The notes beneath the pieces are model-generated. The model searched no databases. It was not told where the DNA came from and saw only the letters and a program-made list of their open reading frames with translations. Shown here piece by piece: positions 1,578 to 63,581 of a stretch of 64,000 nucleotides of DNA. Both the position numbers and the translations under genes were made by a program. Origin of the DNA: Malachius bipustulatus (taxonomy: Eukaryota; Arthropoda; Insecta; Coleoptera; Melyridae); contig OU342639.1 of assembly GCA_910589415.1 (NCBI GenBank), positions 10,672,268 to 10,736,267 of the forward strand, written 5' to 3'. Position 1 is the stretch's first letter, and each line of letters starts with the position of its first letter.

Positions 1578-1632
1578 ACATTTAGCACCGGCTCTCTACG
1601 ATTAAATATACGCAGACAACCGGACTAAATGT
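1578..1632. repeat. Array hairpin 1
   Basis: The outer stem is ACATTTAG/CTAAATGT. The inner arms are CACCGGCTCTCTACG and CGCAGACAACCGGA around an ATTAAATATA loop. CCGG pairs with CCGG and TCT.ACG pairs with CG.AGA. Confidence 0.8.
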
Positions 1633-2641
1633 GAAAACAATCAACTTGACGCTTTTCTTCTCGCACAGTTATCCATATCTGGAAAAGAATGGATGAAAGA
1701 AAAGTAAAACTTACAGAATCTAAAATAATTTAAATGCGAATGGCGAAGCCTGTTCACATTAATTTCCTTAACATGTTTCCAGTCACTACAAAAAGTCGAA
1801 AATCAGATAAATATCTTTTAAAAGAAAACTTGGCAACAGATGAAACATTTGGCAACAGTGTAAGCTGATAATGAGTCATAATTACAAAGACAGGAATTGA
1901 GAGTAACTAAGATTTTGAGAGTCACCCAATGAGGGAACTACTAAGAAGATGTGTTACAAGATGAGATTACACAATTGTCATTAGAACTTTTACATTTTAG
2001 ATTTTTCCATAGCGCGGTATGCTTTCCTCTCTCTGACAGACCCAATCAGGGAAAATCTCGAAAGATTCGCCAATACTCGCATTGTGGGAGGGATGATACA
2101 TTGTCCCATCTTCAAGAGAGGTGACAAGGAAACTACTTAAAATTGTGGGCTACCCTGCATGTACGAGAAAATTGGCTTAAAAAAGCCAGTTTAAAATGAA
2201 AAAAAAACTGTTATTTGGTAGGAGGTTTTCGAGATCTGGCCATGAAAAATTACAAGTTGGAGCGATGTCAACGCATTGTCACACTGTCAACATTTTTTTG
2301 AAAATCAGTGAAATTCCATCCATGTTAAAAAAGATTTTTGAAGAGGTTGGGATGAATTTATTGTTCGATAAAAAATCAAAAATTTGAATTTCATCGACTC
2401 AGACTAAGAGGAAAGAATCTGGATAAAAAAGAAAGAAGGAATCTTCTAGAAAATTACAGAAGAGCGCTAATTTCCACACCACCCTAGAGGTATAGCGCGT
2501 GGCGCGTTTTTTTAACGTGGTCTCCCCTGAGAGGCCTAGTCCACTGAGAAACTAAATGATATACGCTTACAGTAAAATAAATTATATTATTTGATAATCT
2601 TCGTTTAGTGCAATTTTTGACGAAAATGTTCGAACGTTTTT

Positions 2642-2694
2642 ACATTTAGTCCGTGTGCCTACGATTAAATATACGCAGACACCCGGACTAAATA
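2642..2694. repeat. Array hairpin 2
   Basis: The inner arms are TCCGTGTGCCTACG and CGCAGACACCCGGA. GTG pairs with CAC and CT with AG. The 3' outer arm is CTAAATAT, with one mismatch. Confidence 0.8.
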
Positions 2695-3210
2695 TGAAAA
2701 CAATCAACTTGGTGCTTTCATTCTGTTTTCTCACTTTCCACGAGCTCTGAAAAGTGTAAGTAATTGCGATTTTAAGTATACCCACCGAACCAACACAAAT
2801 ATATTGTAAATGTGAAGTTCTGAGAATGTTTACAATTGTTTCTTAAAAAAGAGTTGCACTTAACACTAAGAAGCACTTGAGACTAAGAATAAAAAATTAG
2901 AACGTATGAGCTTCTCTCGTTCGTCCATCTTCTTTTTACTTTCTTTTCAAAGTAAGCAGATTTCTCACCAAATACAGCAACTGATGCCCCGCAATACGAT
3001 TATAAATCACGTAATTGCACAGCTCACTTGCTGTACCTAATGAAACAAACACTTTTAAACTTTCCTCTCTTCGTAGTAATCCATCATAGCAGCATTGATG
3101 TTTCCTGCGATTCGAAAATAAATCATTCCGTAAACGCGGTGGAGGTGCAAAAATGTCAAAAGTAATCTTCGTCTCCTGGCAAGATTTGACGAAAATGTTT
3201 GAACGTTTTC

Positions 3211-3266
3211 ACATTTAGTGCCGAATTCAGTACGATTAAATATACGCACTAACTCGGACTAAATGT
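3211..3266. repeat. Array hairpin 3
   Basis: The inner arms are TGCCGAATTCAGTACG and CGCACTAACTCGGA. CCGA pairs with TCGG and AGT with ACT, with one bulged base. Confidence 0.8.
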
Positions 3267-3922
3267 AAAAACAATCAACTCTTACACTTTGATAATTTTA
3301 TTCTCTCTTCTCATTGTTCTCGATAGCTGGAAAGAAATGGAAAGTGAGACTTACTTACATAATCTAAAATAATGAATTTTATTACAGTGCGAATTCCGAA
3401 GCCTGTTTACTGTTTACATTAACTTCTTTAAAATGTTTACACTCATTACAAAAATTAAAAAATCTTAGCTCGTTTAAATGAAAACTACCTATAAAAAACA
3501 TTTGGCAACAGTGTCATGTGGTAATGAATCACAATTCTTGGGAGAGGAATTGAGAGTAACGTAGAGTGGGCCGGATAATATTGAGAGTCACCCAATGTGG
3601 TATAGATAGAGAGATAGAAGATGACATAGAACAATCTTCACTTGCATGAACTTCTACATTTTAATTTTAGATTCCTCCATATAATGAGGAAACTAACTAA
3701 TCCATGGAGAAACTCAAAAATATCCGTTCCTCGCTTGCACCAGGGAAATCAATATTGAACATAAACTAAACAATCTCTTACATTAATCTCCCTCTTTTCT
3801 GAAAAGTGATGAAAAGAGTTACATAATCAGATTCACTAGTGACTTCACGATTAGTTATAATTAATACTAAAGTAATAATCTTCGTTCCCTGTCAAGATCG
3901 GTGAAAAGGTACGAAAGTTTAT

Positions 3923-3977
3923 ACATTTAGCTCTACTGTGCACGATCAAGTGTACGTCCACAGCAAGAGCAAAATGT
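3923..3977. repeat. Array hairpin 4 (divergent class)
   Basis: The arms are GCTCTACTGTGCACG and CGTCCACAGCAAGAGC around ATCAAGTGTA. GCTCT/AGAGC, CTGTG/CACAG and ACG/CGT all pair. Almost every stem base differs from hairpin 3, yet the fold is the same. Confidence 0.8.
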
Positions 3978-6279
3978 GAAAACAATCAAACTTATGCTTT
4001 TCTTCTCGCATAGTTATCGATATCTGGAAAAGAATGAATTAAAGAAAAGTAAAACTTACAGAATCTAAAATAATTGAAATGCGAATGGCGAAGCATGTTC
4101 ACATTAATTTCCTTAGAATGATTTCAGTCGCTACAAGAAGTCGAAAATCAGAGAAATATCTTTTAAAAGAAAACTTGGCAACAGATGAAACATTTGGCAA
4201 CAGTGTAATGTGATAATGAGTCATAATTACAAAGACAGGAATTGAGAGTAACTAAGATTTTGAAAAAGAAAAAACTGTTATTTGGTAGGAGGTTTTCGAG
4301 ATCTGGCCATGAAAAATTACGACAACTTGATGCGATTTCAACGCATTGTCACACTATCAACAAGATTTGAAAATCAGTGAAATTCCTTCCACGCTATAGA
4401 AAAGATTTTTTGAAGAGGTGGGTTGAATCTATTGATCGATAAAAAATTAAAAAAATTAATTTAATCGATTCAGACTCAGAAGGTATGAATTTGGATAAAA
4501 ACGAAGATAGGAAGTCTTCTAGAATATTACAGAAGAGCGCTAATTTCCACACCACCCAAGAGGTATAGCGCGTGGCGCGTTTTTTTTTTTAATGTGGTCT
4601 CCCCTGAGTGGCCTAATCCACTGAGAAACTATATGATATACGCTAACAGTAAAATAAATTATATAATTTGATAATCTTCGTTTCGTGCAAGATTTTACGA
4701 AAATGTTCGAATGATTTGTATAAGAAAAGCATAAGTGCGATTTTAAGTGTATACCCACCGCACCAACACAAATAATTGTAATGTGAATTTCCAAGAATGT
4801 TTACAATTGTTTCTTAAAAAATAGTTGCACTTAACACTAATAAGCACTTAAGACTAAGAATAAAAAATCAGAACGTATGAGCTTCTCTCGTTCGTCCATC
4901 TTCTTTTTACTTTCTTTTCAAAGTAAGAAGATTTCTCACCAAATACAGCAACTGATGCCATGCAATACGATTATAAATCACGTAATTGCACAGCTCAGTT
5001 GCTGTACCTAATGAAACAAACACTTTCAAACTTATTTCCTCTCTTCGTAGTAATCCATCATAGCAGCATTGATGTTTCCTGCGATTCGAAAAAAAATCAT
5101 TCCGTAAATGCGGTGGAGGTACAAAAATGTCCAAGAAGAGATGAAATGCAAATGAAAATTTATTCAAAATACTGCCACTTTCATTCATATCTGCAGAGAA
5201 GGATAAAAACAGTTGGAAAAAACCGAGAAAAACAAAAATTATAGTGTTCAAAATGAAAACAAAAAAAACATTTTTTTTAGGAGATTTTAAAAATCTGACA
5301 GTGAAAAACCACGACAAGGCGCGGTGTCAGCGCATTGTCACTGTCACACTGTCACACCCAGGATAGACTATAAATCTTTTGAAAAAGTGGGATCAACTAT
5401 TGATCGATAAAAAAATTGAGAATTAAAATTTCATCGATTCAGACTCAGAAAGTACGAATTTGGATAAAAAAGAAAGAAGGAAATCTTCTAGAAAATTACA
5501 GAAGTGCGCTAATTTCCACACCACCCAAGAGGTATAGCGCGTGGGGCGTTTTTTTAACGTGGTCTCCCCTGAGAGGCCTAAATCCACGATGAAGTTCAAA
5601 GGTAACCTATATACCACCTGTATACATAAAGGATAAATTTACTTACATATGATCTTTTCCTCTCAAAAATGATTAAAAGGGTTACATTTGTTCTCAGATC
5701 CACTAATGACTTCACGATTAGTTAAACGGTGAAATCAAAAGCCGATCTCAAAACAATGTTTCCCTCGCCTCTGGATAGGTACGTACTGATAAGTTTCTTC
5801 TCGTCTGTTACAGTCTCGAGATCTGAAAATTAGGAGGCTTAAATGTACTTACCGAATCAACGCAAATAATAATTCGAATTGTGAAATTTTACAGTAATTT
5901 CTAAAAAAAAAAACTTTCACTTAAGACTAAGAATAAAAAAATGAGAGGGTATAAACTTCTATTTTCCGTTCATCTTCTTTTTCCTTTCTTTTTAGAACTA
6001 AGCTTCTTACCAACAAAAAAAGTGCGTACGATTACAAATCACGTTCCACCGAGCCTCACTTGTTGTAGGTATCTAAATCCAGAAAAACAATATTGGAATA
6101 AGATAGGAAGAGACATATGCCTGTTTTGTTTGTCGTAGTCTCCCTCGACAGCACCAAACCTAAATGAAGATTAAATTCAGGAGAAACTCAATGATATGCG
6201 CGCATGCAGTAAAATAAATTCTCTTGCTCAGTAATCTTCGTCTCCTGGCAAGATTTGACGAAAATGTTCGAACGTTTTC

Positions 6280-6333
6280 ACATTTAGTGCCGAGGTAAAC
6301 GATTAAATATACGCACTACCCCGGACTAAATGT
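6280..6333. repeat. Array hairpin 5
   Basis: The inner arms are TGCCGAGGTAAACG and CGCACTACCCCGGA. CCG/CGG and GGTA/TACC pair across one mismatch. Confidence 0.8.
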
Positions 6334-6599
6334 GAAAACAATCAACTCTAGACTTTGATAATTTTATTCTCTCTTCTCCCTGTTCTCGATATCTGGAAAG
6401 AAATGGAAAGTGAAACTAACATGATCTAAAATAATAAATTTAATTGAAACGTTGTCATCACTGCGGCTACAAAAATTCAAAAATCACAGGGGTCATTTGA
6501 AAGAAAATTTTAAAACATTGTCAATGCATTGTCACCCTGTCAACATTTAAGTGTATTTTTTTAATAAAAAACGCAGTATTGAGGACGACATCACTTTTC

Positions 6600-7187: not shown

Positions 7188-8214
7188 CTTGTCAAATATA
7201 CATCCCTCGCTTGCGCCAGGGCGATCAATAATAAAAATAAACTACATAATCTCTAATGAAATAACAAAGGGTTACATGATAATTATGTTCTCAGATTCAC
7301 TAATGAATTCCCGATTAGTCATACGCAGAAGTAATAATAAATAAATAATCTTCGTTTCCTGGCAAGATCGGTGAAAAAGTATAAAAGTTTATACATTTAG
7401 TAGGGGCAACTACGATTAAATATACGCAGTTACCGGAACTAAATGTGAAAACAATCAACTTGACGCTTTTCTTCTCGCACAGTTATCGATATCTGGAAGA
7501 GAATGACTGAAAGAAAAGTAAAACTTACAGAATCTAAAATATTTGAAATGCGAATGTCGAAGCCTGTTCACATTAATTTCCTTAAAATGTTTTCAGTCCC
7601 TATACAAAAAGTAGAAAATCAGAGAAATCTATTTTAAAAGAAAACTTGGCAACAGAGATGAAACATTTGGCAACAGTGTAATGTTATAATGAGTCATAAT
7701 TATAGGGAGAGGAATTGAGTGTAACGAAGATTTTGAGAGGCACCCAATGAGGGAACTACTAAGAAGATGTGTTACAAGTTACAAGATGAGATTACCCAAT
7801 TTTCATTAGAAATTTTACATTTTAGATTTTTCCATAGCGTGGTATGCTTTCCTCTGACAGACCCAATCAGGGAAAATCTCGAAAGATTCGCCAATACTCG
7901 CATTGTCGGAGGGATGATACATTGTCCCATGTTCAAGAGAGGTGACAAGGAAACTACTTAAAATTGTGGGCTACCCTGCTTGAATCGAGAAAATTGGCTT
8001 AAAAAAAACAGTCTCAAATTAAAAAAAAACTGTTATTTGGTAGGAGGTTTTCGAGATCTGGCCATGAAAAATTACGACAACTTGATGCGATGTCAACGCA
8101 TTGTCACACTATCAACACGTTTTGAAAATCAGTGAAATTCCTTCCACGCTAGAAAAGATTTTTTTGAAGAGGTGGGATGAATCTATTGATCGATAAAAAA
8201 TTAAATGTATTTTT
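7188..8214. repeat. Complex repeat array, segment 2
   Basis: Array sequence resumes at tcaaatatacatccctcgc. It carries the hairpin at 7393, the tandem TTGGCAACAG motif pair, an AP-1-like TGAGTCA at 7690-7696, and the ttatttggtaggaggttttcgagatct module. It ends where the transposon arm begins. No gene is visible. Confidence 0.85.
7393..7446. repeat. Array hairpin 6
   Basis: The inner arms are TAGGGGCAACTACG and CGCAGTTACCGGAA. AACT pairs with AGTT and GG with CC. Three mismatches sit between the inner stem and the ACATTTAG/CTAAATGT outer stem. Confidence 0.75.
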
Positions 8215-9485: not shown

Positions 9486-9919
9486 TACTTACCGAATCAA
9501 CGCAAATAGAAATTCGAATTGTGAAATTTTACAGTAATTTCTAAAAAAAAATACTTTCACTTAAGACTAAGAATAAAAAAATGAGAGGGTATAAACTTCT
9601 ATTTTCCGTTCATCTTCTTTTTCCTTTCTTTTTAGAACTAAGCTTCTTACCAACAAAAAAAGTGCGTACGATTACAAATCACGTTCCACCGAGCCTCACT
9701 TGTTGTAGGTATCTAAATCCAGAAAAACAATACTGGAATAAGATGGGAAGAGACATATGCCTGTTTTGTTTGTCGTAGTCTCCCTCGACAGCACCAAACC
9801 TAAATGAAGATTAAATTCAGGAGAAACTCAATGATATGCGCGCATGCAGTAAAATAAATTCTCTTGCTCAGTAATCTTCGTTTTCTGACAAGATTTGACG
9901 AAAATGTTCGAACGTTTTC

Positions 9920-9973
9920 ACATTTAGTGCCGAGGTAAACGATTAAATATACGCACTACCCCGGACTAAATGT
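9920..9973. repeat. Array hairpin 7
   Basis: The inner arms TGCCGAGGTAAACG and CGCACTACCCCGGA are identical to hairpin 5. Confidence 0.8.
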
Positions 9974-10981
9974 GAAAGCAATCAACTTGACGCTTTTCTT
10001 CTCGCACAGTTATCGATATCTGGAAGAGAATGACTGAAAGAAAAGTAAAACTTACAGAATCTAAAATAATTGAAATGCGAATGGCGAAGCCTGTTCACAT
10101 TAATTTCCTTAAAATGTTTTCAGTCGCTACAAGAAGTCGAAAATCAGAGAAATCTCTTTTAAAAGAAAACTTGGCAACAGATGAAACATTTGGCAACAGT
10201 GTAATGTGATAATGAGTCATAATTACAAGGACAGGAATTGAGAGTAACTAAGATTTTGAGAGTCACCCAATGAGGGAACTACTAAGAAGATGTGTTACAA
10301 GATGAGATTACACAATTTTCATTAGAACTTCTACATTTTAGATTTTTCCATAGCGTGGTATGCTTTCCTCTGACAGACCCAATCAGGGAAAATCTCGAAA
10401 GATTCGCCAATACTCGCATTGTCGGAGGGATGATACATTGTCCATCTTCAAGAGAAATGACAAGGAAACTACTTAAAATTGTGGGCTACCCTGCTTGTAT
10501 CGAGAAAATTGGCTTAAAAAAGCAATTTCAAATGAAAAAAAACTGTTATTTGGTAGGAGGTTTTCGAGATCTGACCATGGAAAATTACAAGTTTGCGTGA
10601 TGTCAACGCATTGTCACACTGTCAACATTTTTTTGTAAATCAGTGAAATTCCATCCACGTTAAAAAAGATTTTTGAAGAGGTTGGGATGAATTTGTTGAT
10701 CGATAAAAAATTAAAAATTTGAATTTCATCGACTCAGACTAAGAGGATGGAATCTGGATAAAAAAGAAAGAAGGAATCTTCTAGAAAATTACAGAAGAGC
10801 GCTAATTTCCACACCACCCTAGAGGTATAGCGCGTGGCGCGTTTTTTTTAACGTGGTCTCCCCTGAGAGGCCTAGTCCACTGAGAAACTTTATGGTATAC
10901 GCTTACAGTAAAATAAATTATATTATTTGATAATCTATCTTCGTTTCGTGCAATTTTTGACGAAAATGTTCGAACGTTGTT

Positions 10982-11034
10982 ACATTTAGTCCGTGTAGCT
11001 ACGATTAAATATACGCAGTTATGCGGACTAAATA
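10982..11034. repeat. Array hairpin 8
   Basis: The inner arms are TCCGTGTAGCTACG and CGCAGTTATGCGGA. Read as plus-strand RNA the stem has three G-U wobbles and one A-C mismatch. Confidence 0.8.
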
Positions 11035-11855
11035 TGAAAACAAACAACTTGGTGCTTTCATTCTGTTTTCTCACTTTCCACGAACTCTGAAAAGTGTAAT
11101 TGCGATTTTAAGTATACCCACCGAACCAACACAAATATATTGTAAATGAGAAGTTCTGAGAATGTTTACAATTGTTTCTTAAAAAAGAGTTGCACTTAAC
11201 ACTAATAAGCACTTAAGACTAAGAATAAAAAATCAGAACGTATGAGCTTCTCTCGTTCGTCCATCTTCTTTTTACTTTCTTTTCAAAGTAAGAAGATTTC
11301 TCACCAAATACAGCAACTGATGCCATGCAATACGATTATAAATCACGTAATTGCACAGCTCAGTTGCTGTACCTAATGAAACAAACACTTTTAAACTTTC
11401 CTCTCTTCGTAGTAATCCATCATAGCAGCGTTGATGTTTCCTGCGATTCGAAAAAAAATCATTCCGTAAACGCGGTGGAGGTGCAAAAATGTCCAAGAAG
11501 AGATGAAATGATAATTAAAATTTATTCAAAATACTATAACTTTCATTCATATCTGCAGATAAGGATAAAAACAGTTGGAAAACCGAGAAAAACAAAAATT
11601 ATAGAGCCATGTGATTTAGAAGATTCAAATTTAGATTTTTTCCAATACATGTATAGCTTTTCTAGAATATATAGAAAAGGGGTGATTTCCACACAATCCA
11701 AGAGGTATAGATGTTGCCCCCCCTTTTTTTTAACGTGGTATCCCGTGCATGACGGAGAAACTCAATAATATGCGCTTGCAGGAAAATAAATTCTGTTGTA
11801 TGTATAGTAATCTTCATCTCCTGGCAAGTTTTGACGAAAATGTTTGAACGTTTTC

Positions 11856-11911
11856 ACATTTAGTGCCGAAGTCAGTACGATTAAATATACGCACTAACTC
11901 GGACTAAATGT
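11856..11911. repeat. Array hairpin 9
   Basis: The inner arms are TGCCGAAGTCAGTACG and CGCACTAACTCGGA. It resembles hairpin 3 with one change in the 5' arm. Confidence 0.8.
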
Positions 11912-12751
11912 AAAAACAATCAACTCTTAGACTTTGATAATTTTATTCTCTCTTCTTGCTGTTCTCGATATCTGGAAAGAAATGGAAAGTGAGACTTACT
12001 TACAGAATCTAAAATAATGATGAATTTTATTACAATGCGAATTCCGAAGCCTGTTTACATTAAGTTCTTTAAAATGTTTACACTCATTACAAAAATTCAA
12101 AAATCTTAGCTCTTTTTAAATGAAAACTATATATAATAAAACATTTGGCAACAGTGTCATGTGGTAATGAATCACAATTCTTGGGAGAGGAATTGAGAAT
12201 AACGAAAAGTGGGCCGGATATGATTGAGAGTCACCCAATGTGGTATAGATAGATAGATAGAAGCTGACATATTGACTCAAAAAAAGCAGTCCAAAATGAA
12301 CACAAAGAAAAAGCTGTTATTTGGTAGGAGGTTTTCGAGATCTGGCCATGAAAATTACGACAAGTTTGCGTCATGTCAACCCATTTTCACACTGTCAACA
12401 TTTTTTTGAAAATCAGTGAAATTACATTCACGTTAGAACAGATTTTTGAATAGGTTGGGATGAATTTATTTATCGATAAAAAATTAAAAATTAAATTTCA
12501 TCGATTCAGACTCAGATGGTATGAATTTGGATAAAAACGAAGATAGGAAGTCTTCTAGAATATTACAGAAGAGCGCTAATTTCCACACCACCCAAGAGGT
12601 ATAGCGCGTGGCGCGTTTTTTTTAACGTGGTCTCCCCTGAGAAGCCTAATCCACTGAGAAACTTTGTGATATACGCTAACAGTAAAATAAATTATATTAT
12701 TTGATAATCTTCGTTTCGTGCAATTCTTGACGAAAATGTTCGAACGTTGTT

Positions 12752-12804
12752 AAATTTAGTCCGCGTAGCTACGATTAAATATACGCAGTTATGCGGACTA
12801 AATA
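12752..12804. repeat. Array hairpin 10
   Basis: The inner arms are TCCGCGTAGCTACG and CGCAGTTATGCGGA. Compared with hairpin 8, a T to C change turns a T-G wobble into a C-G pair. Confidence 0.8.
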
Positions 12805-13603
12805 TGAAAACAAACAACTTGGTGCTTTCATTCTGTTTTCTCACTTTCCACGAGATCTGAAAAGTGTAATTGCGATTTTAAGTATACCCACCGAACCAAC
12901 ACAAATAATTGTAAATGAGAATTTCTGAGAATGTTTACAATTGTTTCTTAAAAAAGAATTGCACTTAACACTAATAAGCACTTAAGACTAAGAATAAAAA
13001 ATCAGAACGTATGAGCTTCTCTCGCTCGTCCATCTTCTTTAAAGTAAGAAGATTTCTCACCAAATACAGCAACTGAAGCGATGATTACGATTATAAACCA
13101 CGTAATTGCACAGCTTCCCTTGCTGGACCTAATGAAACAAACACTTTTAAACTTATTTCCTCTCTTCGTAGTAATCCATCATAGCAGCATTGATGTTTCC
13201 TGCGATTCGAAAATAAATCATTCCGTAAACGCGGTGGAGGTGCAAAAATGTCCAAGAAGAGATGAAATGCAAATGAAAATTTATTCAAAATACTGCCACT
13301 TTCATTCATATCTGCAGAGAAGGTAAAAACAGTTTGAAAAACCGAGAAAAGCAAAAATTATAGAGCCATGTGATTTAAAAGATTCAAATTTAGATTTTTT
13401 CCAATAAATGTATAGCTTTTCTAGAATATAGAAAAGGGGTAATTTCCACACAGCCCAAGAGGTATAGATGTTCCCCCCCTTTTTTTTAACGTGGTATCCC
13501 GTGACGGAGAGACTCAATAATATGCGCTTGCAGTAAAATAAATTCTGTTATTTAGTAATCTTCGTCTCCTGGCAAGATTTGACGAAAATGTTCGAACGTT
13601 TTT

Positions 13604-13660
13604 ACATTTAGCGCCGAGGTAGTACGATTAAATATATACGCACTAACTCGGACTAAATGT
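13604..13660. repeat. Array hairpin 11
   Basis: The inner arms are CGCCGAGGTAGTACG and CGCACTAACTCGGA. The loop is two bases longer (ATTAAATATATA). Confidence 0.8.
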
Positions 13661-14258
13661 GAAAACAATCAACTCTTAGACTTTGATAATTCTATTCTCT
13701 CTTCTCACTGTTCTCGATAGCTGGAAAGAAATGGAAAGTGAGACTTACTTACAGAATCTAAAATAATGAATTTTATTACAGTGAGAATTCCGAAGCCTGT
13801 TTACTGTTTACATTAACTTTTTCAAAATGTTTACACTCATTACAAAAATTAAAAAGTCTTAGCTCTTTTAAATGAAAACTACATATAATAAAACATTTGG
13901 CAACAGTGCCATGTGGTAATGAATCACAATTTTTGGAGAGGAATTGAGAATATCGAAGAGTGGGCCGAATAATATTGAGAGTCACCCAATGTGGTATAGA
14001 TAGATAGATAGAAGCTGACATAGAAGAATCTTCACTTGCATGCACTGTCAAATATATACATCACTCGCTTGCGCCAGGGAGATCAATAATAAAAATAAAC
14101 TAGAGAATCTTTAATGAACTACAAAAGGGTTACATAACAATTATGTTCTCAGATTCGCTATAATGTCTTCCCGATTAGTTATACGCAGAAGTAATAATAA
14201 GTAAATAATCTTCGTTTCCTGAAAGATCGAAGATCGGTGAAAAGGTTCAAAAGTTTTC

Positions 14259-14315
14259 ACATTTAGTTCCGGTTGAATACGATTAAATATATACGCATTC
14301 ACCCGGACTAAATGT
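14259..14315. repeat. Array hairpin 12
   Basis: The inner arms are TTCCGGTTGAATACG and CGCATTCACCCGGA. CCGG/CCGG and TGAAT/ATTCA pair. Confidence 0.85.
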
Positions 14316-16493: not shown

Positions 16494-16503
16494 CTTTGTC
16501 TAA

Positions 16504-18082: not shown

Positions 18083-18083
18083 C

Positions 18084-26198: not shown

Positions 26199-26210
26199 TA
26201 ATCTACCCTA

Positions 26211-48680: not shown

Positions 48681-48734
48681 ACATTTAGTGCCGAGGTAAA
48701 CGATTAAATATACGCACTACCCCGGACTAAATGT
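48681..48734. repeat. Array hairpin 26
   Basis: The inner arms TGCCGAGGTAAACG and CGCACTACCCCGGA are identical to hairpin 5. Confidence 0.8.
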
Positions 48735-48989
48735 GAAAGCAATCAACTCTAGACTTTGATAATTTTATTCTCTCTTCTCCCTGTTCTCGATATCTGGAAA
48801 GAAATGGAAAGTGAAACTAACATAATCTAAAATAATAAATTTAATTGAAACGTTGTCATCACTGCGGCTACAAAAATTCAAAAATCACAGGGGTCATTTG
48901 AAAGAAAATTTTAAAACATTGTCAATGCATTGTCACCCTGTCAACATTTAAGTGTATTTTTTTAATAAAAAACGCAGTATTGAGGACGA

Positions 48990-49600: not shown

Positions 49601-49795
49601 ATACATCCCTCGCTTGCGCCAGGGCGATCAATAATAAAAATAAACTAGAGAATCTCTAATGAACTAAGAAAGGGTTACATAATAATTATGTTCTCAGATT
49701 CGCTAATGACTTCCCGATTAGTCATACGCAGAAATAATAATAAATAAATAATCTTCGTTTCCTGGCAAGATCGGTGAAAAGGTTCGAAAGTTTAT

Positions 49796-49852
49796 TCATT
49801 TAGCATTTGCTCTCTACGATTAAAAATATACGTAGACAACAAAACTAAATGT
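49796..49852. repeat. Array hairpin 27
   Basis: The inner arms are CATTTGCTCTCTACG and CGTAGACAACAAAA. TTTG pairs with CAAA and TCT.CTACG with CGTAG.A. The pair next to the loop core is A-T here in place of the usual A-C. Confidence 0.8.
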
Positions 49853-50868: not shown

Positions 50869-50924
50869 ACATTTAGCGACGACAGATAACGATCAAGTAA
50901 ACGTAATCAGCCAGGGCTAAATGT
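50869..50924. repeat. Array hairpin 28
   Basis: The inner arms CGACGACAGATAACG and CGTAATCAGCCAGGG are identical to hairpin 20. The LINE D tail begins about 13 bases downstream. Confidence 0.65.
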
Positions 50925-50936
50925 GAAAACAATCAA

Positions 50937-53998: not shown

Positions 53999-54233
53999 CT
54001 TGACGCTTTCATTCTGTTTTCTCACTGTCCACGATATCTGAAAAGTGTAATTATAAATTTAATTGTACTCACCGAACCAACGCAAATAATTGTACTGTGA
54101 ATTTCTGAGAATGTTTCCAATAGTTTCTTAAAAAATAGTTGCACTTTAATATGCGCTTGCAGTAAAATAAATTCGGTTATTAAGGAATCTTCGTCCCCTG
54201 GAAAGATTTGACGAAAATGTTCGAAAGTTTTAT

Positions 54234-54289
54234 ACATTTAACCCCGCCAGATAACGATCAAGTAAACGTAATCCGCCAGGGCTAAATGT
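54234..54289. repeat. Array hairpin 29
   Basis: The inner arms are ACCCCGCCAGATAACG and CGTAATCCGCCAGGGC. It is of the hairpin 16 class, with one substitution in the 5' arm. Confidence 0.75.
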
Positions 54290-55575
54290 GAAAACAATCA
54301 ACGTGACGCTTTCATTCTGTTTTCTCACTGTCCACGAGATCTGAAAAGTGTAATTATAAATTTAATTGTACCGACCGAGCCAACACAAATAGTAAATGTA
54401 ATGTGAATTTCTGAGACTGTTTACAATAGTTTCTTAAAAGATATTACCACTTAAGACTAAGAATAAAAAATCAGAACGTAGGTACCTAAAGCTTCTCTCG
54501 TTCGTCCATCTTCTTTAAAGTAAGTAGATTTCTCACCAAATATATCAAGTGCCGCTCTGTAATACGATTATAAATCACGTAATTACAGAACTCCACTTGC
54601 TGTATCTAATGAAATTAATTCCTTTTAACTTTGCTTCTCTTCATATGTAGTAATCCTTCATGGTTTCGATGTTTCCAGTGAATGCGGTTACAAAATAATC
54701 GGAAAAAATCTATCTTTCAGTACATAAGGTTATTAAGGTTGACGAAAAAAAAGGCAGAAAAGCAAAAAAGTGAAGAGACATATGTGATTTAGAGGATTTA
54801 GATTTTACGGCTCATACTTCCAGAATCTTTCACAAAAATCTAGTTCTACATATAACATTGCTGTTGATAAAACAATTTTTTCACTTAAAACAAGCATTAT
54901 TATTATAAAAAATTCGCTGAAAAAACTCTTCTCATTTTGTCCGTTTTCGTTCTATTGTCTTCCTCCGAAAATGAGTTTTCCTTTAAGAAACAACAATGGA
55001 AAGTGTTCCACAAAATAAAACAGACTCACACAAAAGTTAACAAGTCAAAATTTACAGTTTTTTCGATCACCAATCAAATAGATAAATTTTATAGGAATTT
55101 TTCACACGCTACAAAAATTCGAAAATCAGAGTCTTTTGAGAGAAAATTAAATTAAAACATTTGACAACAGTGCCATGTGGTAATGAATCACAATCCTTGG
55201 GAGAGGAATTGAGAATAACGAAGAGTGGGCCGGATAATATTGAGAGTCACCCAATGTGGTATAGATAGATAGATAGAAGCTGACATAGAACAATCTTCAT
55301 TTGCATGCACTTTTACATTTTAATTTTGGATTCTTCCATAACGAGGAAACTATAACTAATCCATGGAGAAACTCAAAAATATCCATTCCTCGCTTGCGCC
55401 ATGGGGATCAATAATAAAAATAAACTAGAGAATCTCTAATGAACTAAGAAAGGGTTACATAATAATTATGTTCTCAGATTCGCTAATGACTTCCCGATTA
55501 GTCATACGCAGAAATAATAATAAATAAATAATCTTCGTTTCCTGGCAAGATCGGTGAAAAGGTTCGAAAGTTTAT

Positions 55576-55630
55576 TCATTTAGCATTTGCTCTCTACGAT
55601 TAAATATACGTAGACAACAAAACTAAATGT
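55576..55630. repeat. Array hairpin 30
   Basis: The inner arms CATTTGCTCTCTACG and CGTAGACAACAAAA are identical to hairpin 27, 5,782 bases away. Confidence 0.8.
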
Positions 55631-56651
55631 GAAAACAATCGACTTGACGCTTTTCTTCTCGCACAGTTATCGGTATCTGGAAAAGAATGACTGAAAGAAA
55701 AGTAAAACTTACAGAATCTAAAATATTTTAAATGCGAATGGCGAAGCCTGTTCACATTATTAATTTCCTTAAAATGTTTTCAGTCACTACAAAAAGTCGA
55801 AAATCAGATAAATCTCTTTTAAAAGAAAACTTGGCAACAGATGAAACATTTGGCAACAGTTTAATGTGATAATGAGTCATAATTACAAAGACAGGAACTG
55901 AGAGTACCTAACTAAGATTTTGAGCGTCACACAATGAGGGAACTACTTAGAAGTTGTGTTACAAGATGAGATTACACAATTGTCATTCGAACTTCTACAT
56001 TTTAGTTTTCTCCATAGCGTGGTATGCTTTCCTCTCACTGACAGACCCAATCAGGGAAAATCTCGAAAGATTCGCCAATACGCGCATTGTCGGAGGGATG
56101 ATACATTGTCCATCTTCAAGAGAGGTGACAAGGAAACTACTTAAAATTGTGGGCTACCCTGCTTGTATCGAGAAAATTGGCTTAAAAAAAACAGTCTCAA
56201 ATGAAAAAAAAACTGTTATTTGGTAGGAGGTTTTCGAGATCTGGCAATGAAAAATTACGACAACTTGATGCGATGTCAACGCATTGTCACACTATCAACA
56301 CGTTTTGAAAATCAGTGAAATTCCTTCCACGCTAGAAAAGATTTTTTTGAAGAGGTGGGATGAATCTATTGATCGATAAAAAATTAAAAAAATTAATTTA
56401 ATCGATTCAGACTCAGAAGGTATGAATTTGGATAAAAACGAAGATAGGAAGTCTTCCAGAATATTACAGAAGAGCGCTAATTTCCACACCACCCAAGAGG
56501 TATAGCGCGTGGCGCGTTTTTTTTAACGTGGTCTCCCCTGAGAGGCCTAATCCACTAAGAAACTTTATGATATGCGCTAAAAGTATACTAAATTATATTA
56601 TTTGATAATCTTCGTTTCGTGCAAGATTTGACGAAAATGTTCGAACGTTTT

Positions 56652-56708
56652 CATATTTTAGCGCCGAGGTAGTACGATTAAATATACGCACTAACTCGGA
56701 CTAAATGT
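56652..56708. repeat. Array hairpin 31
   Basis: The inner arms are CGCCGAGGTAGTACG and CGCACTAACTCGGA. The outer 5' arm is altered (ATATTTTAG). Confidence 0.75.
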
Positions 56709-57303
56709 AAAAACAATCAACTCTAAAATTACACTTTGATAATTTTATTCTCTCTTCTCACTGTTCTCGATATCTGGAAAGATATGGAAAGTGAAACTTA
56801 CTTACAGAATCTAAAATAATGATGAATTTTATTACAGTGCGAATTCCGAAGCCTGTTTACATTAATTTCTTTAAAATGTTTACACTCATTACAAAAATTC
56901 AAAAAGTCTTAGCTCTTTTAAATGAAAACTACTTACAATAAAACATTTGGCAACAGTGCCATGTGGTAATGAATCACAATTCTTGGGAGAGGAATTGAGA
57001 GTAATGAAGAGTGGGCCGAATAATATTGAGAGTCACTAAATGTGGTATAGATAGATAGATAGAAGCTGACATAGAACAATCTTCACTTGCATGCACTGTC
57101 AAATATACATCCCTCGCTTGCGCCAGGGAGATCAATAATAAAAATAAACTAGAGAATCTCTAATGAACTACAAAAGGGTTACATAATAATTATATGTTCT
57201 CAGATTCGCTATAATGACTTCCCGATTAGTTATACGCAGAAGTAATAATAAGTAAATAATCTTCGTTTCCTGGAAAGATCGGTGAAAAGGTTCAAAAGTT
57301 TTC

Positions 57304-57358
57304 ACATTTATTGCCGGGGGAATACGATTAACTATACGCATTCACCCGGACTAAATGT
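57304..57358. repeat. Array hairpin 32
   Basis: The inner arms are TTGCCGGGGGAATACG and CGCATTCACCCGGA. CCGGG/CCCGG and GAAT/ATTC pair. The loop is ATTAACTATA. Confidence 0.85.
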
Positions 57359-58957
57359 GAAAACAATCAACTTGTTGCTTTCATTCTGTTTTCTCACGTC
57401 CCATGAGATCTGAAAAGTGTAATTATAAATTTAATCGTGCCAACCGAGCCAACACAAATCATAAATGTAATGTGAATTTCTGAGACTGTTTACAATAATT
57501 TCTTAAAAGATAGTTGCACTTAAGGCTAAGAATAAAAAATCAGAACGTAGGTACCTATGAGCTTCTCTCGTTCGTCCATCTTCTTTTAACTTTCTTCTCA
57601 AAGTAAGCAGATTTCTAAACAAATATATCAAATGCTGCTCTGCCATACGTTTATAAATCACGTTTTGCAGAACTCACTTGCTGTATCTAATGAAACAAAC
57701 TCCTTTAAACTTTGTTTCTCTTCATATGTAGTAATCCTTCATGATTTCGATGTTTCCTGTGAATGCGGTTATAAAATAATCGGAAAAAATTTATCTTTCA
57801 GTAGACAAGGTTAAGGTTGACAAAAAAAATGCAGAAAAACAAAAAAGTGAAGAGACATATGTGATTTAGAGGATTTAGATTTTACGGCCCATACTTCTAG
57901 AGTCTTTCACAAATATCTAGTTCGACATATAAATTTCTTTGACGACTATGAACATTGCTGTTGATAAAACAATTTTTTCACTTAAAACAAGCATTATTAT
58001 TATAAAAAATCGGTGGAAAAACTCTTCTCATTTTGTCCGTTTTCGTTCTATTGTCTTCCTCCGAAAATGAGTTTTTCTTTACGAAACAACAATGGAAAGT
58101 GTTCCACAAAATAAAACAGACTCACACAAAAGTTAACAAGTCAAAATTTACAGTTTTTAAGATCGTTGAAGCCGCAAAATTGAAATAGGGGAAGACCCGA
58201 TTGCTTTATAGGAGAAGAGACTCTATGTTTCAGACATATCAACACGAAACATTCAAATGATTTGGAGGAATATAGAAAAGCAAAGAAACAGACGAAAAAA
58301 GAAATGAAAGAGAAAAATTGAAAGATAGGAACAGACTCTTGAGAATATAGAACAGTATCTACGACGAATACAAGAAGTTCGGAATCATAGATGAAGAAAA
58401 GGTATATATATCTAATGAAAAATTGTCGGAGGGATGATACATTGTCCCATCTTCAAGAGAGGTGACAAGGAAACTACTTAAAATTGTGGGTTACCCTGCC
58501 AGTAAAAACAAAGAAAAAACTGTTATTTGGTAGTAGGTTTGCGAGATCTGGCCATGTAAATTACGACAAGTTGGCGCGATATCGACCCATTTTCACACTG
58601 TCAAAAAATTTTTGAAATCAGTGAAATTACATCCACGTTAGAAAAGATTTTTGAAGAGGTTGGGATGAATTTATTTATCGATAAAAAATTAAAAATTAAA
58701 TTTCATCGATTCAGACTCAGAAGGTATGAATTTGGATAAAAACGAAGATAGGAAGTCTTCCAGAATATTACAGAAGAGCGCTAATTTCCACACCACCCAA
58801 GAGGTATAGCGCGTGGCGCGTTTTTTTTAACGTGGTCTCCCCTGAGAGGCCTAATCCACTGAGAAACTTTATGATATACGCTTGCCGTAAACTTAATTAC
58901 ATTATTTAGTAATCTTCGTTTCCGGACAAGATTGGACGAAAATGTTCGAAAGTTTCT

Positions 58958-59013
58958 ACATTTAACCCCGACAGATAACGATCAAGTAAACGTAATCAGC
59001 CAGGGCTAAATGT
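58958..59013. repeat. Array hairpin 33
   Basis: The inner arms are ACCCCGACAGATAACG and CGTAATCAGCCAGGGC. It is intermediate between hairpins 16 and 20. Confidence 0.7.
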
Positions 59014-59657
59014 GAAAACAATCAACTTGACGCTTTCATTCTGTTTTCTCACTCTTCTAGATATCTGGAAAGATATGGAAAGTGAAACTTACTTACAGAA
59101 TCTAAAATAACGAATTTTATTACAATGCAAATTCCGAAGCCTGTTTACATTAATTTCTTCAAAATGTTTACACTCATTACAAAAATTCAAAAAGTCTTAT
59201 CTCTTTTAAATGAAAACTACTTACAATAAAACATTTGGCAACAGTGCCATGTGGTAATGAATCACAATTCTTGGGAGAGGAATTGAGAGTAACGTAGAGT
59301 GGGCCGGATAATATTGAGAGTCACCCAATGTGGTATAGATAGACAGATAGAAGATGACATAGAACAATCTTCACTTGCATGCACTTCTACATTTTAATTT
59401 TAGATTCTTCCATAACGAGGAAACTATATAACTAATCCATGGAGAAACTCAAAAATATCCGTTCCTCGCTTGCACCAGGGAAATCAATATTGAACATAAA
59501 CTAAAGAATCTCTTACATTAATCTCCCTCTTTTCTGAAAAGTGATGAAAAGAGTTACATAATCAGATTCACTAGTGACTTCACGATTAGTTATAATTAAT
59601 ACTAAAGTAATAATAATCGTTTCCTGTCAAGATCGGTGAAAAGGTACGAAAGTTTAT

Positions 59658-59712
59658 ACATTTTGCACGGCTGTGCACGATCAAGTGTACGTCCACAGCA
59701 AGAGCAAAATGT
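59658..59712. repeat. Array hairpin 34
   Basis: The outer stem ACATTTTGC/GCAAAATGT is perfect, repairing the A-A mismatch of hairpins 4 and 17. The inner arms GGCTGTGCACG and CGTCCACAGCA keep CTGTG/CACAG. Confidence 0.85.
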
Positions 59713-61332
59713 GAAAACAATCAAACTAATGCTTTTCTTCTCGCACAGTTATCGATATCTGGAAGAGAATGACTGTAAGAAAAGTAAAACTTACAGAATC
59801 TAAAATATTTGAAATGCGAATGGCGAAGCCTGTTCACATTAATTTCCTTAAAATGTTTTCAGTCACTACAAAAAGTCGAAAATCAGAGAAATCTATTTTA
59901 AAAGAAAACTTGGCAACAGATGAAACATTTGGCAACAGTGTCATGTGATAATGAGTCATAATTACAAAGACAGGAATTGAGAGTAACTAAGATTTTGAGA
60001 GTCACCCAATGAGGGAACTACTAAGAAGATGTGTTACAAGATGAGATTACACAATTGTCATTCGAACTTCTACATTTTAGATTTCTCCATAGCGTGGTAT
60101 GATTTCCCCCGACAGAACCAATCAGGGAATTTCTCGAAAGATATACCAGTACTCGCATTGTCGGAGGGATGATACATTGTCCATCTTCAAGAGAAATGAC
60201 AAGGATACTACTCACTTAAAATTGTGGGCTACACTGCTAGTATCGAGAAATAGTGGCTAAAAAAAAACAGTTCAAAATGAGAAGGAAAAAAAACTGTTAT
60301 TTGGTAGGAGGTTTTCGAGATCTGGCCATGAAAAATTACGACAACTTGATGCGATGCCAACGCATTGTCACACTATCAACACGTTTTGAAAATCAGTGAA
60401 ATTCCTTCCACGCTAGAAAATATTTTTTGAAGAGGTGGGATGAATCATTAATCGATAAAAAATTGAAAAAAATGAATTTAATCGATTCAGACTCAGAAGG
60501 TACGAATTTGGATAAAAAAGAAAGAAGGAAATCTTCTAGAAAATTACAGAAGTGCGCTAATTTCCACACCACCCAAGAGGTATAGCGCGTGGCGCGTTTT
60601 TTTTAACGTGGTCTCCCCTGAGAGGCCTAAATCCACGATGAAGTTCAAAGGTAACCTATATACCACCTGAATACGTAAAGGATAAATTTACTTACATATG
60701 ATTCTTTTCCTCTCAAAAATGATGAAAAGGGTTACATTTGTTCGCAGATCCACTAATGACTTCACGATTAGTTAAACGGTGAAATCAAAAGCGGATCTGA
60801 AAACAATGTCTCCCTCGCCTCTGGATAGGTACTTGCTGATAAGTTTCTTCTTGTCTGTTACAGTCTCGAGATCTGAAAACTAGGAGGCTTTAAATGTACT
60901 TACCGAATCAACGCAAATAATAATTCGAATTGTGAAATTTTACAGTAATTTCTAAAAAAATACAATCACTTCAGACTAAGAATAAAAAAAATGAGAGGGT
61001 ATAAACTTCTATTTTCCGTTCATCTTCTTTTTCCTTTATTTTTAGAACTAAGTTTCTTACCAACAAAAAAAAGTGCTTACGATTACAAATCATGTTTCAC
61101 CGAGCCTCACTTGTTGTAGGTATCTAAATCCAGAAAAACAATACTAGAATAAGATGGGAAGAGACATTATGCCTGTTTTGTTTGTCGTAGTCTCCCTCGA
61201 CAGCACCAAACCTAAATGAAGATTAAATTCAGGAAAAACTCGAATGATATGCGCGCATGCAGTAAAATAAATTCTCTTGCTCAGTAATCTTCGTTTTCTG
61301 ACAAGATTTGACGAAAATGTTCGAACGTTTTC

Positions 61333-61387
61333 ACATTTAGCGCCGGATTATTACGATTAAATATACGCACTAACTCGGACTAAATGT
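61333..61387. repeat. Array hairpin 35
   Basis: The inner arms CGCCGGATTATTACG and CGCACTAACTCGGA are the same as hairpin 18. Confidence 0.7.
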
Positions 61388-61999
61388 GAAAACAATCAAC
61401 TCTTACACTTTGATCATTTTATTCTCTCTTCTCAGTTTCTCACTGTTCCGATATCTGGAAAGAAATGGAAAGTGAAACTTACTTACAGAATCTAAAATAA
61501 TGAATTTTATTACAGTGCAAATTCCGAAGCCTGTTTACTGTTTACATTAATTTCTTTAAAATGTTTACACTCATTACAAAATTTCAAAAATCTTAGCTCT
61601 TTTAAATGAAAACTACTTACAATAAAACATTTGGCAACAGTGCAATGTGGTAATGAATCACAATTCTTGGGAGAGGAATTGAGAGTAATGAAGAGTGGGC
61701 CGAATAATATTGAGAGTCACCCAATGTGGTATATGGATAGATAGATAGATAGAAGCTGACATAGAACAATCTTCACTTGCATGCACCGTCAAATATATAC
61801 ATCCCTCGCTTGCGCCAGGGAGATCAATAATAAAAATAAACTAGAGAATCTCTAATGAACTACAAAAGGGTTACATACAATTATGTTCTCAGATTCGCTA
61901 CAATGACTTCCCGATTAGTTATACGCACTACGCAGAAGTAATAATAAGTAAATAATCTTCGTTTCCTGGAATGATCGGTGAAAAGGTTCAAAAGTTTTC

Positions 62000-62056
62000 A
62001 CATTTAGTGCCGGTTGAATACGATTAAATATATACGCATTCACCCGGACTAAATGT
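62000..62056. repeat. Array hairpin 36
   Basis: The inner arms TGCCGGTTGAATACG and CGCATTCACCCGGA are the same as hairpin 19. Confidence 0.85.
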
Positions 62057-62865
62057 GAAAACAATCAACACTTGTTGCTTTCATTCTGTTTTCTCAGTGT
62101 CCACGATATCTGAAAAGTGTAATTGCGATTTTAAGTATACCCACCGAACCAACGTAAATAATTGTAATGAGAATTTCTGAGAATGTTTACAATAGTTTCT
62201 TAAAAAATAGTTGCACTTAACACTAATAAGCACTTAAGACTAAGAATAAAAAATCAGAACGTATGAGCTTCTCTCGTTCGTCCATCTTCTTTTTACTTTC
62301 TTTTCAAAGTAAGAAGATTTCTCACCAAATACAGCAACTGATGCCAGGCAATACGATTATAAATCACGTAATTGCACAGCTCAGTTGCTGTACCTAATGA
62401 AACAAACACTTTCAAAATTTCCTCTCTTCGTAGTTGTCCTTCATAGTAGCATTGATATTTCCTGCGATTCGAAAATAAATCATTCCGTAAACGCGGTGGA
62501 GGTGCAAAAATGTCCAAGAAGAGATGAAATGCAAATGAAAATTTATTCAAAATACAGCCACTTTCATTCATATCTGCAGAGAAGGATAAAAACAGTTGGA
62601 AAAACCGAGAAAAACAAAAATTATAGAGCCATGTGATTTAGAAGAACCAAATTTAGATTTTTCAAATATATGTATAGCTTTTCTAGAATATAGAAAAGGG
62701 GTAATTTCCACACAGCCCAAGAGGTATAGATGTTCCCCCCCTTTTTTTTAACGTGGTATCCCGTGACGGAGAAACTCAATAATATGCGCTTGCAGTAAAA
62801 TAAATTCTCTTGCTCAGTAATCTTCGTTTTCTGACAAGATTTGACGAAAATGTTCGAACGTTTTC

Positions 62866-62920
62866 ACATTTAGCGCCGGATTATTACGATTAAATATACG
62901 CACTAACTCGGACTAAATGT
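62866..62920. repeat. Array hairpin 37
   Basis: The inner arms CGCCGGATTATTACG and CGCACTAACTCGGA are the same as hairpin 18. Confidence 0.7.
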
Positions 62921-63524
62921 AAAAACAATCAACTCTAAAATTACACTTTGATAATTTTATTCTCTCTTCTCACTGTTCTCGATATCTGGAAAGATATGGA
63001 AAGTGAAACTTACTTACAGAATCTAAAATAATGATGAATTTTATTACAGTGCGAATTCCGAAGCCTGTTTACATTAAGTTCTTTAAAATGTTTACACTCA
63101 TTACAAAAATTCCAAAATCTTAGCTCTTTTAAATGAAAACTACATATAATAAAACATTTGGCAACAGTGCCATGTGGTAATGAATCACAATTTTTGGAGA
63201 GGAATTGAGAGTATCGAAGAGTGGGCCGAATAATATTGAGTCACCCAATGTGTGGTATATATACCTAGGTAGATAGAAGCTGACATAGAACAATCTTCAC
63301 TTGCATGCACTGTCAAATATATACAACCCTCGCTTGCGCCAGGGAGATCAATAATAAAAATAAACTAGAGAATCTCTAATGAACTACAAAAGGGTTACAT
63401 AATAATTATGTTCTCAGATTCGCTACAATGACTTCCCGATTAGTTATACGCACTACGCAGAAGTAATAATAAGTAAATAATCTTCGTTTCCTGGAAAGAT
63501 CGGTGAAAAGGTTCAAAAGTTTTC

Positions 63525-63581
63525 ACATTTAGTTCCGGTTGAATACGATTAAATATATACGCATTCACCCGGACTAAATGT
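63525..63581. repeat. Array hairpin 38
   Basis: The inner arms TTCCGGTTGAATACG and CGCATTCACCCGGA are the same as hairpin 12. Confidence 0.85.

Follow-up and report, generated by a model that had tools for sequence, protein, structure and literature searches.

A tandem array of covarying hairpins in the beetle Malachius bipustulatus, a candidate minus-strand microRNA cluster

Three hairpin families in a degenerate tandem array

The window analysed here is a stretch of 64,000 bases (65% A+T, from base counts) of the beetle Malachius bipustulatus (Coleoptera; Melyridae), corresponding to positions 10,672,268 to 10,736,267 of the forward strand of contig OU342639.1 (GenBank assembly GCA_910589415.1). 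Within these 64 kb, 60 stable hairpins were found in three families, designated H1 (38 copies), D (14 copies) and H2 (8 copies), together with 22 poorly paired relatives (Table 1). A first-pass annotation made from the sequence alone had described 38 covarying hairpins, read on the plus strand, as a candidate hairpin-RNA or structured-RNA locus. All 38 are real and correspond to H1, and the locus is larger than described: the D and H2 families interspersed among them had been missed, as had the fact that the minus strand is the better-folding one.

The H1 set was recovered both as 38 counted loops and as 38 covariance-model matches at E <= 1e-12, spanning 1572-63587. The frame ACATTTAG ... CTAAATGT, earlier ascribed to every copy, is less uniform than that; exact ACATTTAG is present in 28/38 copies and exact CTAAATGT in 30/38, and "every copy" is too strong since the two occur together in only 23/38. 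Taken as far as the GTTTTC/GAAAAC stem extends, each hairpin is 66-69 nt long, less than the 70-75 nt first given, and the description as precursor microRNA (pre-miRNA)-sized holds. The base changes quoted for the fifth and seventh pairs, as well as the repair in hairpin 34 of a mismatch seen in hairpin 4, were checked by eye and are correct in the sequences. A second block, close to CTTGCCAGGAAACGAAGATTA (<=4 substitutions), lies about 20-45 bases 3' of H1, in the minus-strand flank, in 33/38 copies.

On the minus strand, the D and H2 copies have folding energies of -22 to -45 kcal/mol. When the H1 covariance model was run against the window, 90 matches were returned, 76 of which are the 38 H1 copies on both strands; it also matched all eight H2 hairpins (E = 1.5e-6 to 1.8e-3), 5 of the 14 D hairpins (3e-3 to 0.38) and one of the poorly paired relatives of H2 (0.41), these on the minus strand only, and no unrelated hairpin in the window. 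Conversely, the D model matches H1 copies on the minus strand (best E = 6.7e-5), and the H2 model matches two H1 copies at E = 2e-4 and 4.4e-4 plus weaker ones, all E-values of the three models being rough. The motif AUCGU stands at the loop in 59/60 hairpins (38/38 H1, 13/14 D, 8/8 H2), and the longer loop string AUUUAAUCGU in 27/38 H1. Judged from this model-level similarity, H1, D and H2 are probably three paralogous families.

The 22 relatives, 13 of H2 (h2x) and 9 of D (dx), have mean folding energies of -10.4 and -15.5 kcal/mol, respectively, and fold better on the minus strand in 9/13 and 9/9 cases. They are probably decayed copies of H2 and D. Since stable pairing is absent from them, pairing is not an automatic outcome of duplication.

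The median spacing of the 60 hairpins is 667 bases. On the minus strand they recur in arrangements such as D followed after about 300 bases by H1, after about 120 more by h2x and after about 530 more by another H1. The array is a degenerate tandem one, with 805 direct and 8 inverted matches in a self-comparison; identity within the 60 longest self-matches is 80-98%, and their length reaches 2.75 kb. It is interrupted by retrotransposons of the long interspersed nuclear element (LINE) type and other repeats.

Table 1 Hairpins and poorly paired relatives in the window (bits in H1 rows are R1 covariance-model scores)
Feature	Position	Strand	Score and remarks
H1 hairpin	1572..1638	-	83.9 bits
H1 hairpin	2636..2701	-	80.2 bits
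H1 hairpin	3205..3272	-	85.5 bits
H1 hairpin	3917..3983	-	65.6 bits
H1 hairpin	6274..6339	-	81.8 bits
H1 hairpin	7387..7452	-	76.3 bits
H1 hairpin	9914..9979	-	77.2 bits
H1 hairpin	10976..11041	-	70.8 bits; one of three folding better on plus
H1 hairpin	11850..11917	-	85.4 bits
H1 hairpin	12746..12811	-	72.1 bits; one of three folding better on plus
H1 hairpin	13598..13666	-	82.5 bits
H1 hairpin	14253..14321	-	87.3 bits
H1 hairpin	17432..17498	-	83.2 bits
H1 hairpin	28022..28088	-	83.7 bits
H1 hairpin	28587..28654	-	85.5 bits
H1 hairpin	30288..30355	-	70.7 bits
H1 hairpin	30982..31048	-	65.6 bits
H1 hairpin	33998..34064	-	85.8 bits
H1 hairpin	34644..34712	-	87.7 bits
H1 hairpin	36341..36408	-	70.1 bits
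H1 hairpin	42527..42592	-	77.2 bits
H1 hairpin	45113..45180	-	87.1 bits
H1 hairpin	46187..46252	-	67.2 bits; one of three folding better on plus
H1 hairpin	47058..47124	-	87.3 bits
H1 hairpin	47765..47830	-	73.1 bits
H1 hairpin	48675..48740	-	77.2 bits
H1 hairpin	49790..49858	-	69 bits
H1 hairpin	50863..50930	-	70.1 bits
H1 hairpin	54228..54295	-	63.3 bits
H1 hairpin	55570..55636	-	75.9 bits
H1 hairpin	56647..56714	-	75 bits
H1 hairpin	57298..57364	-	81.9 bits
H1 hairpin	58952..59019	-	70.3 bits
H1 hairpin	59652..59718	-	66.4 bits
H1 hairpin	61327..61393	-	85.8 bits
H1 hairpin	61994..62062	-	87.7 bits
H1 hairpin	62860..62926	-	83.9 bits
H1 hairpin	63519..63587	-	87.3 bits
D hairpin	2959..3043	-	103.5 bits
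D hairpin	4930..5014	-	110.2 bits
D hairpin	11295..11379	-	110.2 bits
D hairpin	13051..13135	-	73.6 bits
D hairpin	14560..14645	-	104.3 bits
D hairpin	28341..28425	-	103.5 bits
D hairpin	28889..28971	-	90.3 bits
D hairpin	32652..32736	-	110.2 bits
D hairpin	34942..35027	-	104.2 bits
D hairpin	46506..46590	-	110.2 bits
D hairpin	54527..54612	-	106 bits
D hairpin	57610..57693	-	86.9 bits; weakest fold, -21.8 kcal; loop AACGU not AUCGU
D hairpin	62316..62400	-	106.1 bits
D hairpin	63822..63907	-	105.8 bits
H2 hairpin	1099..1192	-	114.9 bits
H2 hairpin	5673..5766	-	114.8 bits
H2 hairpin	16952..17045	-	113.7 bits
H2 hairpin	33396..33489	-	115.1 bits
H2 hairpin	37417..37510	-	115.1 bits
H2 hairpin	43515..43608	-	115 bits
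H2 hairpin	48072..48165	-	108.6 bits
H2 hairpin	60723..60816	-	111.4 bits
h2x, poorly paired H2 relative	3806..3898	-	probably decayed
h2x, poorly paired H2 relative	7270..7363	-	
h2x, poorly paired H2 relative	14128..14221	-	
h2x, poorly paired H2 relative	27905..27996	-	
h2x, poorly paired H2 relative	30871..30963	-	
h2x, poorly paired H2 relative	34525..34620	-	
h2x, poorly paired H2 relative	47647..47740	-	
h2x, poorly paired H2 relative	49673..49766	-	
h2x, poorly paired H2 relative	55453..55546	-	
h2x, poorly paired H2 relative	57179..57274	-	
h2x, poorly paired H2 relative	59541..59633	-	
h2x, poorly paired H2 relative	61868..61961	-	
h2x, poorly paired H2 relative	63393..63486	-	
dx, poorly paired D relative	1412..1494	-	probably decayed
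dx, poorly paired D relative	5992..6073	-	
dx, poorly paired D relative	9632..9713	-	
dx, poorly paired D relative	17271..17353	-	
dx, poorly paired D relative	33715..33797	-	
dx, poorly paired D relative	42245..42326	-	
dx, poorly paired D relative	44952..45033	-	
dx, poorly paired D relative	48393..48474	-	
dx, poorly paired D relative	61043..61125	-	

Strand preference and covariation of the stems

The mean folding energy of the 38 H1 hairpins is -30.4 kcal/mol on the minus strand against -24.3 kcal/mol on the plus strand. At fixed coordinates the minus strand is the more stable in 35/38 H1, 14/14 D and 8/8 H2 hairpins (57:3 overall), whereas 63 control windows holding other stable hairpins split into 32 minus and 31 plus (17 and 15 for the controls inside the array; Mann-Whitney p = 1e-10). 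Scanning both strands of the entire window likewise brought out the minus preference of the two other recurrent hairpins, D and H2. Against dinucleotide shuffles, three H1 copies gave z-scores of -9.1, -8.1 and -8.5 on the minus strand and, for the same copies, -7.9, -6.0 and -3.8 on the plus strand; all seven hairpins tested lie between -6.5 and -9.7 on the minus strand.

The asymmetry can be seen in individual pairs. The third pair from the loop is an A·C mismatch on the plus strand in most H1 copies, and on the minus strand it is G-U in 22 and A-U in 8 of the 30 distinct rows. In a strand-neutral alignment of the arms, with identical hairpins collapsed here and in the H1 and D covariation counts, G·U cells outnumber A·C cells on the minus strand by 59:25 in H1 (29 distinct), 46:5 in D (10 distinct) and 12:1 in H2 (4 distinct). 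Counted as distinct events, the ratio is 20:2 in D, which is significant although some of it is inflated by register shifts, and 3:1 in H2. On the two H1 trees, reverse changes, from G·U or from A·C back to Watson-Crick pairs, number 11:6 and 19:5. RNA from the plus strand was rejected as the product of the locus, since folding, the comparison with controls and the placement of the CNNC motif (see below) all favour the minus strand.

These results also bear on a cause at the DNA level, in which quasi-palindromes would be kept perfect by template switching or be used as cruciforms without any RNA function. The outer stem is indeed a near-perfect palindrome in many copies, and repairs of mismatches to Watson-Crick pairs can be counted as 11 or 13 single-change branch events, depending on the tree. 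A DNA cruciform, which the first-pass annotation had offered as an option, is nevertheless disfavoured because mismatches and stability are not strand-symmetric: the hairpins differ from the controls in strand asymmetry, the pair that reads A·C on one strand and G·U on the other is kept in most distinct H1 rows, and G·U cells exceed A·C cells, though the H1 event counts alone are not significant. Given also the relatives that lack stable pairing, we consider a DNA-level cause very improbable.

Covariation in H1 was assessed on an alignment of 38 rows (30 distinct), 27 pairs and 808 cells; the pairing statistics are favoured by its having been fitted to the structure. Stem cells are paired in 90.0% of cases, against 28-47% for slid partners. 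There are 68 double-change cells against 24.8 ± 4.1 in shuffles, and the covariation score is 0.255 against 0.121 ± 0.010, neither being reached in 500 shuffles. Two further counts are unexceptional: 10 pairs carry a double change (reached in 72/500 shuffles), and there are 29 further pair types (reached in 48/500). An unfitted MAFFT alignment gave double changes in 7 of 17 RNAalifold pairs. A tree-aware null, our own simplified stand-in for R-scape, yielded 22.2 ± 7.5 double changes on a tree built from hairpin and flanks together, with 1/1000 replicates reaching the observed 66, and 27.0 ± 8.4 on a flanks-only tree, with 0/1000 reaching the observed value; the paired percentage was reached in 0/1000 on either tree. 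In D (14 rows, 10 distinct), 95.3% of cells are paired and 9 double-change cells stand against 3.6 in shuffles (0/500), while pairs with a double change (3; 202/500) and further pair types (8; 422/500) are unremarkable. The results support the view, already expressed in the first-pass annotation for the 38 hairpins, that selection acts on structure, with pairing in H1 and D kept through compensatory change.

A neutral satellite, that is, tandem repeats of a once-functional hairpin whose covariation reflects common descent, would fit the tandem arrangement, the turnover by block duplication seen in the long self-matches and the presence of 22 poorly paired relatives. It is at odds with the shuffle and tree-aware nulls and with the way a near-invariant seed-side arm adjoins freely drifting mid-stems, and we regard it as extremely unlikely.

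Precursor anatomy and the distribution of constraint

On the minus strand, the H1 hairpins can be read as primary microRNAs (pri-miRNAs). If, following the rule given in PMC7174388, the 5p product is taken to begin 13 nt above the presumed basal junction, in H1 it would start with ACAUUUAG. The predicted seed is CAUUUAG in 30/38 copies, UAUUUAG in 4, CAUUUUG in 3 and CAUUUAA in 1. The distance of 16-18 nt that is typical of the CNNC motif, which only some pri-miRNAs carry, is counted from the Drosha cut. In the portion of PMC7174388 drawn on here, the motif sits 16-18 nt along the 3p basal segment. In our hairpins, the predicted 3p end on the minus strand is followed by a CNNC at 18 nt in 36/38 H1 and at 17 nt in 13/14 D, and on the plus strand none is found at 16-18 nt in any of 52 hairpins (0/38 H1, 0/14 D). 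The chance of a CNNC in a three-position window is 0.094, to be applied to roughly one observation per family because the copies are related, and the 3' flanks had already been inspected before the motif was scored. The plus-strand reading of the first-pass annotation is thus contradicted by CNNC placement in H1 and D as well as by folding.

The pri-miRNA stem is described, in the section cited, as about 35 ± 1 bp with a terminal loop of more than 10 nt (PMC10954719). With 14-nt flanks, the stem span on the 5' side is 34-35 nt in 21/38 H1; the H1 terminal loops measure about 10-12 nt, most of them 10 nt, which is the lower limit of that rule. The three hairpin covariance models comprise 27, 28 and 35 base pairs, and the loops are short.

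Such dimensions are of importance for a second class of small RNA. Known hairpin RNAs (hpRNAs) are long inverted repeats. An hpRNA locus would give rise to endogenous small interfering RNAs against transposons or selfish genes, its variable mid-arms tracking changing targets; tandem copies with fast-changing arms and preserved pairing in transposon-rich surroundings are what such a locus might look like. The hairpins here, however, are pre-miRNA sized and do not have long inverted repeat arms, and they carry a CNNC and a conserved seed segment, so an hpRNA locus appears improbable. Thus, of the miRNA or hpRNA interpretation first proposed, the size class is borne out and the strand, which was the poorer-folding one, is not.

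Along the H1 hairpin, variation is almost absent from the outer 5' arm and from parts of the loop, and in the mid-stem it reaches the level of distant flanks. The 5' arm is the more conserved in 15 and the 3' arm in 5 of 27 pairs (p = 0.028). The D loop has a mean entropy of 0.09, with 9/11 columns invariant. Among D copies of type 2 (profile from 6/14 copies; type 1 from 7/14), the hairpin stands out with a conservation of 0.94 against 0.83 and 0.84 in the flanks. The H1 flanks are fairly conserved (0.70-0.85) over about 20-40 nt on either side.

This pattern could also be produced by repeated structured domains of a single minus-strand long non-coding RNA (lncRNA), in which the loop core (AUCGU, mostly AUUUAAUCGU in H1) and the outer stem would form a protein-binding site on a stem whose middle need only pair. 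The near-universal loop core, the covarying mid-stems, the minus-strand asymmetry and the conserved H1 flanks all agree with it. It does not predict a pri-miRNA-like CNNC on the minus strand, pre-miRNA size or the 5'-arm bias of H1, and three families with separate arm sequences exceed the needs of one repeated domain; we therefore hold lncRNA domains to be rather unlikely.

Surrounding repeats, known systems and interpretation

LINE-type retrotransposons in both orientations break the array at 18443-27435 and 51046-53988, with three reverse transcriptase (RT) domains (18914-21100 minus, 21681-24626 plus, 51046-52671 minus), endonuclease matches and one open frame of 981 codons. Among the best 120 of 246 and the best 120 of 3504 matches, the RT relatives that name an organism (4 and 5 rows) are all from beetles (Photinus, Callosobruchus, Henosepilachna) at 36-46% identity; the third RT has 19 matches, with a leafhopper and a frog as the organisms named. 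A 153-codon frame at 15907-16368 (minus) resembles, by eye, the end of a further LINE RT, with no Pfam match. Another element of about 1.3 kb, probably mobile and recent, is present in three copies about 99% identical and in both orientations (8210-9488, 37589-38866, 40839-42100), with no frame above 77 codons in the copy checked. A long hairpin resembling a miniature inverted-repeat transposable element (CACCGATC...GATCGGTG) occurs at 6611-6720 and 49011-49120 and is about equally stable on either strand. At about 711-820 there is a G+C-rich foldback with GGGCCGGCCC, which we take to be reminiscent of a hAT transposon end, and 39269-39406 holds a tandem repeat of GGAATTAGGGGAATTACTAG in 6.8 copies.

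Other identities were considered for the locus. No tRNA was found in the window, and tRNA-derived hairpins were rejected. A coding explanation was likewise rejected: of 16 stop-to-stop open reading frames of at least 120 aa, 3 hold RT domains, 1 has an endonuclease match just below the cut-off and 12 are without Pfam match. Queries with one pattern and one 4.9-kb stretch found no match in viral, prokaryote, plasmid and phage collections, which says little because these are not insect collections. A library of open-licence papers yielded nothing for "mir-3012" or for six hairpin arm strings. The aphid "Ya" lncRNA array, an early candidate for which no paper was found in that library, was set aside on the ground of the named LINE relatives, which point elsewhere.

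Given the strand preference, the covariation and the precursor anatomy, the locus is probably (we put this at roughly 0.7) a minus-strand tandem cluster of pri-miRNAs in an insect, grown by tandem duplication and organised like the miR-430 cluster of fish. The hairpins, their strand preference and covariation, the likeness of the three families at model level, the poorly paired relatives and, in H1 and D, the position of the CNNC are observed; we infer transcription, processing, guide arm, targets and decay. The array would be transcribed from the minus strand, and its 60 hairpins would be substrates of Microprocessor and Dicer, yielding RNAs of about 22 nt. In H1, the likely guide would be the 5' arm, close to ACAUUUAGUCC plus a variable tail, bearing the predicted seed CAUUUAG. 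The cluster would grow and decay as blocks of several hairpins are duplicated. Selection would keep the outer 5' arm with the seed, part of the loop and the pairing itself, and because it is pairing that is held, mid-stem bases could drift by compensatory change.

A number of observations weigh against this reading. The plus strands of the seven hairpins tested also beat their shuffles (z -3.3 to -7.9), as near-palindromes would. For H1 alone the distinct-event ratio of G·U to A·C is 17:11 (p = 0.17, not significant), and changes from Watson-Crick to G·U against those to A·C number 15:9 and 17:10 on the H1 trees, again at event level. In H2, the basal rule puts the CNNC at 15 nt in 6/8 copies and within 16-18 nt in none of 8; the apical rule, tried after the basal rule had missed, puts it at 18 nt in 6/8. 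D and H2 have longer stem spans on the 5' side when 14-nt flanks are included, 45-49 nt in 13/14 D and 41-51 nt in 7/8 H2. The two D arms are equally conserved (6 vs 6 of 28 pairs, p = 0.74). The H1 loop has a mean column entropy of 0.28 with 5/10 columns invariant, and mid-stem pairs 19-25 reach 1.97; a loop more conserved than the mid-stem is unusual for miRNAs. In H2 and in type 1 of D, the 100 bases next to the hairpin nearly match it in conservation, and in H2 the downstream 100 nt score 0.985 against 0.968 for the hairpin. In the window search, D is missing from the matches of the H2 model, and H2 from those of the D model. Among 13 Rfam rows, no match lies above its gathering score and the miRNA matches are all sub-threshold: mir-3012 (RF03996) over H2 on the minus strand reaches 28.6 bits against a gathering score of 90 (E 0.31), and mir-460 falls on the plus strand over an H1. 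Two further rows, bantam (RF00727; over H2, minus; 28.1 against 61) and mir-310 (RF04249; over H1, minus; 26.1 against 48), which together with mir-3012 are the best Rfam matches, are noted without any claim of membership.

Known clusters offer likenesses of organisation. Human C19MC and rodent miR-290-295 are large tandem miRNA clusters, which the present array resembles in its tandem organisation and which differ in being vertebrate. The part of PMC10417697 cited mentions the miR-290-295 family and a link between C19MC and Alu elements, and it describes the zebrafish miR-430 hairpins a, b and c as repeated in tandem triplets. With fish miR-430 our array has in common several hairpin variants in tandem and many copies with a common seed. 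The seed there is AAGUGCU, whereas CAUUUAG is predicted for H1; our array differs further in having one loop core common to all three families, in the wide divergence of D and H2 from H1, and in the many relatives that lack pairing. In insects, the sections cited describe a tight tandem group of 11 locust miRNAs, six of which resemble one another (PMC4556993), and nine cockroach clusters of 2-12 usually paralogous miRNA genes each, extending over 4-70 kb (PMC5637074). Like them, our locus consists of insect hairpins formed by local duplication, here candidate miRNAs; its 60 stable hairpins in 64 kb are several times the number of genes in those clusters.

A more specific proposal, which we advance tentatively and hold to be possible rather than probable, is that the locus is a lineage-specific insect super-cluster. 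The loop core AUCGU common to the three families would act through a protein to gate processing. Dozens of diverging small RNAs could in this way be switched on jointly while their mid-stems and 3' ends remained free to change, and the locus would act as a small-RNA diversification array.

If transcribed, the cluster would be far larger than the insect miRNA clusters described in the cited sections for cockroach and locust, and would parallel the miR-430 array of fish. With dozens of paralogous hairpins at one locus, rules of pri-miRNA evolution concerning seed, loop, pairing and CNNC become readable, the poorly paired relatives serving as internal controls, and the common loop core on covarying stems provides a testable hint of loop-dependent, coordinated processing.

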